Origin: Indioceanicola profundi
GTDB lineage: Bacteria > Pseudomonadota > Alphaproteobacteria > Azospirillales > Azospirillaceae
Direction of reading: 5' to 3'
Assembly (NCBI RefSeq): GCF_003568845.1
Contig: NZ_CP030126.1
Location: 1,949,001-2,013,000, forward strand
DNA length: 64,000 bases
The translations under genes were made by a program, and so were the position numbers. This document shows, one piece after another, positions 44,785 to 55,090 of this stretch (its first letter is position 1; the number at the start of each line of letters is the position of its first letter). The notes beneath the pieces were generated by a model. It was not told where the DNA came from. It saw nothing but the letters and a program-made list of their open reading frames with translations, and searched no databases.

Positions 44785-44874
44785 GGAGAGGTGGCGGAGT
44801 GGTCGAACGCGTCGGTCTCGAAAACCGAAGTACCCGCAAGGGTACCGTGGGTTCGAATCCCACCCTCTCCGCCA
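44785..44874 (+). tRNA. tRNA-Ser (anticodon CGA)
   Basis: The acceptor GGAGAGG pairs with CCTCTCC, followed by G and encoded CCA. The anticodon loop is CTCGAAA (anticodon CGA, reading UCG). There is a long class II variable arm (TACCCGCAAGGGTA) and T-loop GGTTCGAATCC. Its 3' end serves as the integration site of the downstream island; the gene remains complete. Confidence 0.96.
44856..44874 (+). repeat. attL core (19-bp direct repeat)
   Basis: AATCCCACCCTCTCCGCCA forms the last 19 bases of tRNA-Ser, from the T-arm through the CCA. An identical copy lies at 55072-55090 beyond the second integrase. This is the usual footprint of tyrosine-recombinase integration at a tRNA 3' end. Confidence 0.92.
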
Positions 44875-44937
44875 TTTGGCTCTAGAAGCCGCAGAAACAC
44901 TCATATCCCGCAGTTATCCTAGGCCCTCAGGCCCGCC

Positions 44938-44963
44938 GGTGGTACAAAACGGTGGTCCAAATG
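44938..44963 (+). repeat. Left arm-type tandem repeat (2 x 13 bp)
   Basis: GGTGGTACAAAAC followed immediately by GGTGGTCCAAATG, 64 bases inside attL. The related pair at 54986-55011 lies 61 bases inside attR in the same orientation. They look like arm-type binding sites of the integrase. They also cover the region before the integrase start, so they could affect its expression. Confidence 0.7.
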
Positions 44964-44993
44964 CCCTCTTTCCGTCCGCATACAGTCAGGATC

Positions 44994-46466
44994 ATGGCTC
45001 AGCCGTTCCGCCATCCAAAGACCGGGATGCTCTATTTCCGCAGAGTGGTTCCAGAAGCTCTGAGGGAGGCCATAGGGAGGCGGGAAATCAAGGTTAGCCT
45101 GGGCACCAGAGACCCGGCTGAGGCCCGTCAAGCCTATCTCAGGATTGCTGAGCAAACTGACCAGCTATTTGCCCGTGCCAGGAACGGGACTCAGACTCTT
45201 ACGCAGGAACAGCTTATGGCCCTAGTGGGTCTGTGGTACCGCCAGGAGTTGGCGCGGTATGAGGCTGATCCAGGTGAAGCTAGTGGGGAGGAAACCCGCT
45301 GGACCCTTCAACTGGATGAGATGGCGGCGGCTGATGAGAAGGGCTGCCTTGCTGCTTATATGGCTGAGGACGTTCAGGCCCTGCTTACGGCCCAAGGGCT
45401 GGTGCTAGATGAGCCAACCCGTGAGCGGCTGGCTGAGCGGATGTTCTGGAGCAAGGTTAAGCTCTGCAACACCCTGAGCCAGCGTGTCAGAGGCAACTAC
45501 GCTCCTGACCCACACCTAGCTTCCTTTCCAGCCTGGAAGCCTCCTGGGACCGCTTCAGCAACCAGCCTCACCTTCAATGACCTTCTGGACGGCTGGGCTT
45601 TGGAGACTAGTGCCCAGAAGAAGACCCGCGATGATTGGGGCGGAAAGTTCCAGCGCCTGGGGGAGTTCCTGGGTCACAGCAGTCCTGCCCAGCTAACAGC
45701 TGAGGATGCAGTACGCTGGAAGGAACACGCACTGGGAAAGCTCGGGGCTATCACGGTTAGAAACTACCTTCATGCTTTCAGCGCCGTCTTGAACTGGGGT
45801 GTGGAGAACAAGCGGATTCCTGCGAACCCCTTTGCCGGAATCCGTGTCCGGGCTAAAAAGGCCGCGGGGACAAAGAAGCTGCCATTCACCGACGATGAAG
45901 CTGCATTGATCCTACAGGAAGCTAGGAAGCTCCGGGGTGCTAAGCGGTGGGTTCCTTGGATACTAGCCTTCACGGGTGCCCGCCTGGATGAGGCTTGCCA
46001 GCTTCTCACGTCTGATGTGAGGACTGAGGAAGGCGTCACCTATCTGGACCTCAATGCAGACTTCCAGAAGCGGCTGAAGACAGAAGGTTCAGCACGGCAG
46101 ATTCCCGTTCACCCCATCCTTATCAGAGAGGGTTTCCTGGAGTTTGTGGCCTCCCATCCCGCCAACGCGCCGATCTTCCCAGATATTACGCCAGACCGCT
46201 ACGGGCGCAGGGCTGGAAATGGAACCAAGGTGTTCGGTCGCTGGGTTCGCGGCTTAGGGATTACGGACAAACGCAAGGCCCCTAACCACGCTTGGCGGCA
46301 CAGGTTTAAGGATGTTTGCCGTAAGGCCCGCATCCCCAAGGACGTTCAAGACGCCCTCCTGGGCCATAAATCCGGGGACGTGGGCGATAGCTACGGTGAA
46401 GGCTTTACCGTCAGAACCTTGGCTGAGTGGATGAAACAAGTTCCCTCACCCCTGGGGCACGGCTAA
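44994..46466 (+). CDS. Tyrosine recombinase/integrase (left)
   Basis: A 490-residue phage-type integrase. The N-terminal part (AQPFRHPKTGMLYFRRVVPEALREAIGRREIKVSLGTRDPAEARQAY) is the arm-binding-like domain seen in DUF6538-type integrases; a SAM-like core-binding domain lies near 210-290. The catalytic domain has FTGARLDEACQL (Arg I), HAWRHRFKDVCRKA (His-x-x-Arg), LLGHKSGDVGDSYG with the nucleophile Tyr. It lies 120 bases from attL and is the best candidate for integration at tRNA-Ser. The start is uncertain; ATG at 44961 or GTG at 44952 are alternatives. Confidence 0.92.
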   Translation: MAQPFRHPKTGMLYFRRVVPEALREAIGRREIKVSLGTRDPAEARQAYLRIAEQTDQLFARARNGTQTLTQEQLMALVGLWYRQELARYEADPGEASGEETRWTLQLDEMAAADEKGCLAAYMAEDVQALLTAQGLVLDEPTRERLAERMFWSKVKLCNTLSQRVRGNYAPDPHLASFPAWKPPGTASATSLTFNDLLDGWALETSAQKKTRDDWGGKFQRLGEFLGHSSPAQLTAEDAVRWKEHALGKLGAITVRNYLHAFSAVLNWGVENKRIPANPFAGIRVRAKKAAGTKKLPFTDDEAALILQEARKLRGAKRWVPWILAFTGARLDEACQLLTSDVRTEEGVTYLDLNADFQKRLKTEGSARQIPVHPILIREGFLEFVASHPANAPIFPDITPDRYGRRAGNGTKVFGRWVRGLGITDKRKAPNHAWRHRFKDVCRKARIPKDVQDALLGHKSGDVGDSYGEGFTVRTLAEWMKQVPSPLGHG

Positions 46467-46467
46467 C

Positions 46468-46523
46468 AAAAAAAGCCCCCGGCTCCACAGGACAGCCAAA
46501 GCCATCTCAGCGGAACCGGGGGC
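46468..46523 (-). terminator. Terminator of the minus-strand island operon
   Basis: On the minus strand a 12-bp stem (46523-46512 with 46486-46475, one G-U pair) and a 25-base loop are followed by a run of T residues (46474-46468). It lies just past the stop of the left integrase and would end minus-strand transcripts coming from the helicase side. Confidence 0.75.
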
Positions 46524-53261: not shown

Positions 53262-53554
53262 AGTACGTTGGGCCGTTTAGGCTAGCCCAGCACCGTGAGA
53301 GGATGGGGTGGGGTCTGAAGCCACCCCCAGGGGGTCAATCAATGGTCCATTCAAAAAAGGCACCTAAAGGGAAAGTTGTTAGTTGTTGTCCCACCCTTCA
53401 AGTCCGGGGTCCCCCTGAGAAAACCAAAGCCCCCCCCCCTCTTCATCCCCCCCAGGGGGTCTCTTCAGCCCTCCCGCGGAACAGGGGGGCCTGTTTTCTG
53501 GGGAGATGGGGACCCCAGCCGTGGGCCGGGGGTGTCCTGGGAGAACCTTGGACC
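53262..53554. other. C/G-homopolymer-rich intergenic stretch
   Basis: About 290 bases between the membrane protein and the right integrase. It contains several runs of 5-9 C or G (for example around 53431-53460), giving spurious open frames; no credible gene or terminator is seen. Confidence 0.6.
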
Positions 53555-54889
53555 TCAGACCAAGGCGTTGACCTCAGGCCCGTAGTCTACCTTCTGAATG
53601 GCGCTGCTGAGGTTCACACAGACGCCCTTGGAATAGCGTCCAAAGGTCATGTCCCTACGCTCATGGCCCACTAGCAACTGGACCGTGGATAGCGGGACCT
53701 CAGCCCCTTCCAGAAGCTCAATCAGGTTCTTCCTGGTGGAATGGAAGACCACGCCAGCCCTATCTACCCCCGCTCCCCTACGGGCCGCTGAGAACTTCTT
53801 AGAGGCGCTATGGCCCTTATCCTTGTCATAGCCTCCAGGCGGGAAGACGCTATCCGGGAAGAACCAGCCGCCTGGGTCAGCCTCAGCGGTCCTCAGGAGC
53901 CTATCCACCAGCGTCTCTATCTGGGGGTGGATGGGGATATGGCGGATAGCGGCTTCAGTCTTCCCTTCCTCAATGGACAGGAAACGGACCCCATGCTTTT
54001 CCACCACATGCTTAGCCCTCAGGCTGGCTAGCTCATTGATACGGCCCCCGGTGAACAGACCCAGGCGAAACAGGTCAGCCAGTGGCCCCTCCAGGGTTCT
54101 CAGGAGGTTGGAGATTTCTTCAGTGGTGTAAGGCACCCAGCCCTTGGCCTTCTTGCCTCCACGGCTCTTGGTTACGGCTCCACGCTGGCCTCCCCAAGGA
54201 TTGGCTTGGTCATCCTTGGTGCGGCCCTTCTGGATAAGCCATTTCCACCAGTTACTGATTCCGCTGAGGTTCCGGTTCCGGGTGTCCTTAGCCATTGCCT
54301 GGAGCTTATCGGAAACATAATCCCCGGCATGGCGGCGGGTGACCTCATGGACCAGGAGGATGCCCTTGGAATCCGCCCACTCCAGGAACTTGGAGACACT
54401 GGTTTTATAATCATGGACGGTCTTCCGGGCCGCTTCAGATGCTTCTAGGTCCACCAGCCATAGAGCGTAGGTTTCCCTCAGGGTGGGTGATTTGGACAGT
54501 GCTCCCCGCACCAGGGAACGCGAAAGACCCTCACTCACCTGGGCCGCGGCTTTCTCAGCAAGCGTCTCCAGGACCACCATGGCAATATCCCGGTCACTCA
54601 TACCAGTGAGAGGGTCTGGAACATTGGACGCTGCTAGGATGGCCTTCCGGACCTCTATGGCCTTCCTAGTCGCGGCACTTAGATTTCCGACCTTCTCCAG
54701 GCCAGCAAGCTCAGCCTTAATTTGGGCCACCAAGGGCCAGCGAAGAACACGGGCTTCATCTAGGGAATGGGTCTTCAGGGTACGGATAATATGAGTGTTT
54801 CCAACCTGAGCCTCTAAGGACCTGGGAACCCGGACCTTCACATACCAAGTCTGGTAGCGACGCATAAGGTACCGGGTGTCGTTATCCAT
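53555..54889 (-). CDS. Tyrosine recombinase/integrase (right)
   Basis: A 444-residue integrase. The N-terminal DUF6538-type domain is MDNDTRYLMRRYQTWYVKVRVPRSLEAQVGNTHIIRTLKT. The catalytic domain has LFTGGRINELASLR (Arg I), VFHSTRKNLIELL (His-x-x-Arg), LLVGHERRDMTFGRYSKG with the nucleophile Tyr. It faces inward from the right end, about 180 bases from attR. Distinct from the left integrase, so the element may be composite or this gene may encode a second insertion activity. Confidence 0.92.
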   Translation of the reverse strand: MDNDTRYLMRRYQTWYVKVRVPRSLEAQVGNTHIIRTLKTHSLDEARVLRWPLVAQIKAELAGLEKVGNLSAATRKAIEVRKAILAASNVPDPLTGMSDRDIAMVVLETLAEKAAAQVSEGLSRSLVRGALSKSPTLRETYALWLVDLEASEAARKTVHDYKTSVSKFLEWADSKGILLVHEVTRRHAGDYVSDKLQAMAKDTRNRNLSGISNWWKWLIQKGRTKDDQANPWGGQRGAVTKSRGGKKAKGWVPYTTEEISNLLRTLEGPLADLFRLGLFTGGRINELASLRAKHVVEKHGVRFLSIEEGKTEAAIRHIPIHPQIETLVDRLLRTAEADPGGWFFPDSVFPPGGYDKDKGHSASKKFSAARRGAGVDRAGVVFHSTRKNLIELLEGAEVPLSTVQLLVGHERRDMTFGRYSKGVCVNLSSAIQKVDYGPEVNALV

Positions 54890-54985
54890 ATCCGCCCCTA
54901 GGGTAGCTTTTACCTCATGTAATTAGCATCCAGGACGGCAATCCAAGCGACCTTAGGAAGCAGCCTCATCAGACAGGCCGTTGCT

Positions 54986-55011
54986 GCGGATACAAAGCGG
55001 TGGTACAAAGC
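54986..55011 (+). repeat. Right arm-type tandem repeat (2 x 13 bp)
   Basis: GCGGATACAAAGC followed directly by GGTGGTACAAAGC. Same orientation as the left pair at 44938-44963 and at a similar distance from the att core, so the two ends are organised as matched binding arms. Confidence 0.7.
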
Positions 55012-55071
55012 GGGCTAACGCACAGGGCCTGAAAGCCTAGGAAAACTGCCGTTTCTGAGCGGACGAGGCAC

Positions 55072-55090
55072 AATCCCACCCTCTCCGCCA
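55072..55090 (+). repeat. attR core (19-bp direct repeat)
   Basis: Identical copy of the tRNA-Ser 3' end AATCCCACCCTCTCCGCCA. Beyond it, the sequence switches back to typical chromosomal composition. Confidence 0.92.

Follow-up and report, generated by a model that had tools for sequence, protein, structure and literature searches.

What is an island of about 10.2 kb doing at the end of a tRNA gene when a single virion gene can be recognised in it? This question is raised by positions 44856-55090 of the Indioceanicola profundi DNA analysed here (64,000 nucleotides at full length, called the window throughout), and our answer, which we hold with somewhat better than even confidence, is that we are looking at an integrative satellite that exploits podoviruses and represents one of several kinds of satellite in which an ejection protein of podoviral origin has been acquired. 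The island is discrete and low in G+C content (0.569 inside versus 0.676 in the rest of the window) and abuts its integration target, tRNA-Ser (CGA) (44785-44874, plus strand; ARAGORN, Rfam tRNA), whose last 19 bases, AATCCCACCCTCTCCGCCA, form attL (44856-44874, plus strand) and recur as an exact copy, attR (55072-55090, plus strand). The longest match that the tRNA gene has in the 12 kb that follow it is 19 bp, against a maximum of 14 over 300 first-order Markov resamples, so the att repeat is beyond chance; two att matches arose in 0 of 100 shuffles, and a third copy, with up to 3 mismatches allowed, was not found within the 64-kb window. A tandem of two elements, as two integrases might suggest, was also considered, and no internal att copy was found within 3 mismatches.

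The repeats had been reported in the original prediction, made from the letters of the window, and they stand, as do its two integrases, its RepA-like gene, its one virion-like protein and its statement that terminase, capsid, portal and lysis genes are missing. Tyrosine integrase 1 (44952-46466, plus strand; 504 residues; Pfam/PHROG) starts beside attL and tyrosine integrase 2 (53555-54889, minus strand; 444 residues; Pfam, PHROG, NCBIfam) starts beside attR, so that one lies at each end of the island and both read inward. Both have DUF6538 N-termini (Pfam) and the R, HxxR and Y motifs that are significant in tyrosine integrases, and appear to be intact. The prediction overlooked a small serine recombinase of 223 residues (52036-52707, minus strand; Pfam Resolvase E 1.2e-28), which brings the recombinases of the island to three. 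The RepA-like protein is an AAA_25 ATPase (47239-48393, minus strand; Pfam AAA_25 E 1.2e-27) with a weak HTH_3 match, below cut-off, at its C-terminus (0.0087). Terminase, portal, capsid and lysis genes were recognised neither among the open reading frames (ORFs) of the window that were scanned (14 against Pfam, 10 against PHROGs and 9 against NCBIfam) nor by tblastn of the island with phage markers, nor by the direct queries described below.

The virion-like protein, ej1 (48765-49976, minus strand; 403 residues), is a podovirus-type DNA ejection protein and the sole recognised virion gene of the island. Its match to PHROG 4287, 'DNA ejection protein', spans residues 10-400, most of the protein (E 2.6e-21). 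The window ej1 itself found no match in cultured phages, nor did an ej1 profile find anything in the PDB; several cultured-phage relatives of its homologue in the viral locus L013 are annotated as DNA injection or ejection proteins, among the best 20 of 34 records. Of 92 ej1 loci found in IMG/VR we kept 80, and the podovirus structural module to which it belongs, seen in full in L013, L015 and L016, runs in the order stopper-like, vir545, fibre-like, ej1, ej2, ej3, terS, terL and portal, some of these names being assigned by position or reading. The vir545 gene, for a 545-residue virion protein (PHROG 3287 in L002), is present in 76 of the 80 loci, and in the other four (L022, L045, L051 and L086) ej1 is no more than ~700 bases away from where the stretch ends.

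When bacterial genomes were searched with ej1 or its alignments, in overlapping sets of 82, 385, 397, 299, 398 and 49 genomes centred on the window genome (G000) and on G462, at least 16 of them gave matches; the count is a minimum, as scoring covered just part of the candidates in each genome. Ten of these have ej1 in a prophage that contains head or packaging genes (G061, G292, G511, G525, G751, G808, G1278, G196, G537 and G944), and six have it in small islands without them: the window island, L007, L006, L109, L113 and L174. A second match in G808, on a 3.1-kb contig with vir545, was counted with its genome as prophage; the prophage label of L117, L175 and L176 is based on PHROG matches of their neighbours; and the ORFs of these loci were called mechanically, longest first, so that their start positions, and some of the small ORFs themselves, are uncertain. 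The block of genes seen in the window island was not met inside a full prophage, the case that the prediction had named as fatal to it; what prophages hold are single ej1 homologues, as expected for a captured gene.

We compared 201 ORFs from 13 phage and prophage stretches (L008 and L036, with an identical ej1 segment, are both among them) with the six islands. The virion homologues found were ej1 in all six, an ej2-like gene in L006 and an ej3-like gene in L007; the other matches were an integrase in L007, a 49-residue stretch in L109 and the SocA/Panacea protein of L109, which is also found in the prophage L110. As just three of the 13 stretches reach the capsid gene, capsid, scaffold, portal and terL were queried directly, and these queries (2 capsid, 1 scaffold, 2 portal, 1 terL and 1 further virion protein) gave no match in the six islands up to E 10. 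In the two islands tested, ej1 is the only part with DNA-level similarity to phages. The terL of this type was found in 3 of 81 family genomes and was missing from the window genome (E 1e-10) and from G042, the genome of L007; these two genomes are therefore unlikely to harbour such a helper, and the helper, if any, would be external.

The other five islands occupy different sites. L007 (13.9 kb) lies at tRNA-Cys with a 79-bp repeat and carries an HNH endonuclease and an Ant/Rha-type protein; L006 (14.0 kb), from the alphaproteobacterium Pseudoroseomonas aerophila (G462), lies at tRNA-Glu with an 18-bp repeat and carries a DRT2 reverse transcriptase (11760-13172; PADLOC E 2e-130); L109 of G861 (8819-19310, ~10.5 kb) sits inside a split gene, near its ATP-binding motif, and carries a large serine recombinase and the SocA/Panacea protein, the split gene being called comM-like from reading its translation, without a family match. 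These three have two defined ends, as does L174 of G876 (6.5 kb; tRNA-His, 30-bp repeat), in which we find an integrase, a small serine recombinase, a KTSC protein, ej1, an HNH endonuclease and small ORFs. In L113 (G578) an integrase adjoins tRNA-Arg, which gives one end; the second was not found. The DRT2 and SocA/Panacea cargo is compatible with satellites that carry defence genes. Integrase 1 of the window is 34% identical over 507 residues to the integrase of L006, and integrase 2 is 27-28% identical to the integrases of the tRNA-Arg islands L113 and L118. The small serine recombinase is present in five of the six islands (the window island, L006, L007, L113 and L174). The window island and L007 also have in common a 62-residue protein encoded directly upstream of ej1 (49976-50164, minus strand, with a one-base overlap, in the window; 41% identity over 44 residues, E 1e-6), a gene for which no match below E 1 was found in the phage loci compared. 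L006 (4361-5908) and L109 (14964-16436) encode related proteins (39% over 443 residues) whose only match is PHROG 4756, of unknown function, and which look polymerase-like on reading the translations, without a family match; these two islands share an HNH-like protein as well, yet they have different integration enzymes.

An empty insertion site, put forward in the prediction as a check, was found for one island and not for that of the window. For L174, one of six congener stretches (G737, which has no ej1 match) has an empty tRNA-His site, with 464 bp from the tRNA to the right flank versus 6960 bp in L174; the other five had no tRNA-His adjoining the L174 flank. For the window island, whose genus comprises one genome, the right flank was not found beside the tRNA-Ser in 9 family stretches, bar one 29-bp match. 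In L174 the DNA past attR (12460-12590) is 78% identical to the DNA past attL, a likeness suggesting that a related element had inserted at this tRNA-His before and left a remnant.

In a tree of 28 ej1 proteins, to which L174, L175 and L209 had been added as three further rows, the window ej1 pairs with that of L007 (support 95/90) and that of L006 with that of L109 (100/100), L174 groups with the prophages L114 and L209 (100/100) and L113 with the prophages L110-L112 (100/99). A single clade of the six island proteins is rejected (approximately unbiased test, p-AU 6.4e-5), and unrelated elements thus seem to have gained ej1 more than once, which on the evidence of this tree would mean repeated recruitment of ejection proteins. 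An earlier tree of 54 of the 92 ej1 proteins, without L174 and with 38 near-copies or partial sequences dropped, agrees on L006 with L109 and on L113. The nonsynonymous and synonymous divergence of ej1 between L006 and L109 (dN 0.38, dS 1.07) is within the range of three phage pairs (ratios 0.22-0.39), and ej1 of this pair is under purifying selection. Descent of all six islands from one satellite family was considered and rejected, given this result for ej1 and the few genes in common; the islands are not one family.

How might such an element use an ejection protein? Podoviral ejection proteins are packed alongside the DNA and are needed for infectivity (PMC8954989), so an ej1 made by an island could enter helper particles and either aid delivery of the island or spoil that of the helper. 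We infer mobilisation and co-packaging by a helper. Upon infection by a podovirus, the integrase would excise the island and the RepA-like ATPase would replicate it, both ordinary expectations of these protein families, and the DNA of the island would then be packed into particles of the helper. In the window island no gene for capsid resizing was recognised, and packaging as a concatemer is thus possible; a small serine recombinase in five of the six islands is compatible with later resolution of such a concatemer. The ej1 of the island would enter the particle in place of, or in addition to, its homologue from the helper, and DNA delivery could thereby come to suit the satellite or the host that carries it, perhaps at the expense of the helper. 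A broader proposal, which we advance tentatively and with less than even confidence, is that the islands belong to an unnamed class of podovirus satellites ('ejection-module satellites'), unrelated integrative elements that would have converged on hijacking DNA delivery: their own ejection protein or proteins in helper particles would determine what DNA, or what host, is served, and an element of 6-14 kb would travel as a concatemer in a capsid of ~40 kb, to be resolved on arrival by the serine recombinase.

Several points weigh against the satellite reading. The helper phage, the excised circle and packaged satellite DNA are unobserved. They have little in common beyond ej1 and recombinases, and the presence of ej1 in all six follows from its use as search bait. 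In the 54-row tree the window and L007 proteins are unresolved and the strongly supported branches require just 2 changes, and the divergence of ej1 between L006 and L109 may be partly older than its capture. The AlphaFold model of ej1 is mostly helical and of low confidence (pLDDT 58). Among IMG/VR contigs an island-type context of ej1 was seen in 0 of 76 testable cases, in a collection that may favour contigs with virus hallmarks; scans of viral contigs with RepA and with ej1 of L006 and L007 found no relatives of the islands. No packaging-site similarity to phages was seen in the two islands tested for it, just three of the 13 phage stretches extend into a capsid gene, as noted above, and it was hardly possible to set up a matched control with other virion genes that stand alone. 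Such a control could be made in part, from two further terL matches in the family, in G052 beside a portal gene and in G035 beside nothing that the markers matched.

The strongest rival assigns ej1 to the defence of the host. In an anti-phage island, ej1 would be a decoy that the infected cell produces and that is built into the progeny of an invading podovirus and spoils its DNA ejection, protecting the host population, and the island would move by other means. We regard this as rather unlikely, and it and the satellite reading are not mutually exclusive. A decoy would account for the incomplete set of partners that accompanies ej1 in each of the six islands and would sit well with DRT2 in L006 and SocA/Panacea in L109, and podovirus prophages with the nearest ej1 do occur in the host relatives searched (L209 and L114 for L174, L110-L112 for L113). 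However, the ej2-like gene of L006 and the ej3-like gene of L007 exceed what a one-protein decoy needs, and a replication-type gene together with several recombinases suggests a mobile parasite over a fixed defence locus. It appears quite improbable, too, that the island is an integrative element that is plasmid-like or moves with the help of conjugation, and that ej1 is a passive passenger acquired through recombination. The RepA-like ATPase points in that direction, as do two islands, L118 and L119, that combine such an ATPase with an integrase and have no ej1, but the repeated acquisition of one and the same virion protein, together with purifying selection on it in one pair, argues for use, and no relaxase or mobilisation family was found among the window ORFs scanned with Pfam, PHROGs and NCBIfam. 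A comparison of 7.2 kb of the island with plasmids gave no match.

That the island is a podovirus prophage stripped of all but ej1 was the main alternative in the original prediction, and we consider it very improbable. The phage origin of ej1 and the ej1-bearing prophages of related genomes are what such decay would leave, but the att repeats are exact and the integrases apparently intact, fragments of other virion genes were unrecognised in any of the six islands, the same module is kept in islands of more than one origin and is under selection in the L006/L109 pair, and terminase of this type is absent from the window genome and from G042. As a main reading it was rejected once the 201 phage ORFs and the seven direct head and packaging queries had found no virion gene other than those for ejection in the six islands. 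The preference of the prediction for a satellite is now better supported than decay from a prophage, by five further islands with a lone virion gene or little more (four of them with two ends) whose virion homologues are ejection proteins only; the defence gene that it had counted in favour of a satellite is not supported.

Known satellites differ in which part of the virion they bring or alter. PICI/SaPI (phage-inducible chromosomal island and Staphylococcus aureus pathogenicity island) and P4-like elements have genes for capsid size and for redirecting packaging, P4-like satellites have psu/sid/delta-type genes and an alpha primase, and capsid-forming PICIs (cfPICIs) bring part of the virion, namely their own head/capsid and packaging genes. 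The six islands contrast with cfPICIs in having ejection proteins alone, and no capsid-size or packaging-redirecting gene was recognised here; no psu/sid/delta-type or alpha primase annotation appeared among the Pfam, PHROG and NCBIfam matches of the window ORFs scanned. With satellites in general the window island shares site-specific integration with its own integrase and the lack of a complete virion gene set, and it has neither the terL, portal and capsid genes of a podovirus prophage nor the capsid and packaging genes of a cfPICI. Its ej1 belongs to the same sequence family as the phage proteins of PHROG 4287, for which the ejection proteins of P22 and T7 serve as models, but it lies in an island and not in a phage, and no portal, capsid or terminase gene was recognised with it. 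PICI/SaPI and P4-like satellites are integrated elements that exploit helper virions, as is proposed for the islands considered here, known satellites being said to pirate their helpers at the capsid and packaging steps, and VEIMEs and tycheposons are further proposed families (PMC11389934). There is a likeness in layout to the PICMIs (phage-inducible chromosomal minimalist islands) of Vibrionaceae, small integrated islands with few genes and no recognised capsid-remodelling gene, some of which carry defence cargo including a class II DRT, and which are packaged as concatemers (PMC10803314). PICMIs adjoin fis, whereas the window island is at tRNA-Ser, and of the PICMI model of integrase, AlpA, primase and fis only the integrase has a counterpart here (PMC10803314); AlpA and primase (DUF3987/DUF5906) had no Pfam match among the 14 window ORFs scanned. 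The main text of the PICMI study does not use the word 'ejection' (PMC10803314). For phage 80alpha and SaPI1, the ejection protein gp44 belongs to the phage, and in the tests reported SaPI transduction was unaffected when it was lost, a result for which that study proposes a reason (PMC7290940). No report of a satellite that encodes its own ejection protein was met in the literature searched, a scope that excluded most subscription journals, and within that literature the islands, if mobilised as proposed, would be a so far unreported variant among phage satellites.

The remaining genes of the window island add possible cargo and regulation. On the minus strand the 62-residue gene, ej1, small ORFs and the RepA-like ATPase follow one another; one of these ORFs (48335-48559, minus strand; 74 residues, from the ORF list), between ej1 and repA, may not be a gene, having no Pfam match and a best PHROG E of 0.075. 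The prediction had placed a helix-turn-helix regulator at 50722-51012 (plus strand; 96 residues), which is possible on weak PHROG matches (0.0019-0.031) with nothing stronger, and an abortive-infection gene at 51255-52007 (plus strand; 250 residues), for which we find no such evidence: PADLOC matched 0 families to it and no Pfam match was above cut-off. The N-terminal part of this 250-residue protein, possible cargo, resembles some phage proteins (phrog_8999, residues 20-103, E 2.5e-17), and tblastn found it in 6 phage records, one annotated 'putative lysogenic conversion protein' and the others including annotations of unknown function. Defence cargo is likewise not supported for the island as a whole, in which PADLOC recognised no known defence gene. 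A 146-residue protein (52821-53261, plus strand) had no match in Pfam, PHROGs, PADLOC or NCBIfam, and C and G homopolymer runs lie between its ORF and integrase 2 (53395-53545). A promoter and terminator scan of the island gave no excess over shuffles.

Within the family tRNA-Ser (CGA) is a recurrent integration site, used in the window and in L163 and L162. In G067 it holds a different island, with a 15-bp repeat, a RepA-like protein, an integrase and a protein that reads as UmuC-like, and in G059 an integrase adjoins it, together with a serine recombinase 46% identical to that of the window. The 5.7-kb island L118 (G062, 5390-11122), at a tRNA-Arg, has an integrase like integrase 2, a protein that reads as ParA-like, a serine recombinase and a RepA-like ATPase, with no ejection protein, and is a possible relative of the replication module; L119 is a small island with a RepA-like ATPase and an integrase.

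If these islands do pirate the ejection step, DNA entry would be a further control point in the conflict between phages and their satellites. They would then also make podoviral ejection proteins, a difficult subject of study, accessible to genetics, and open a route to ask whether ejection proteins help to set host range. A lone ejection protein beside an integrase, furthermore, offers a search marker for satellites in bacteria in which few have been described.

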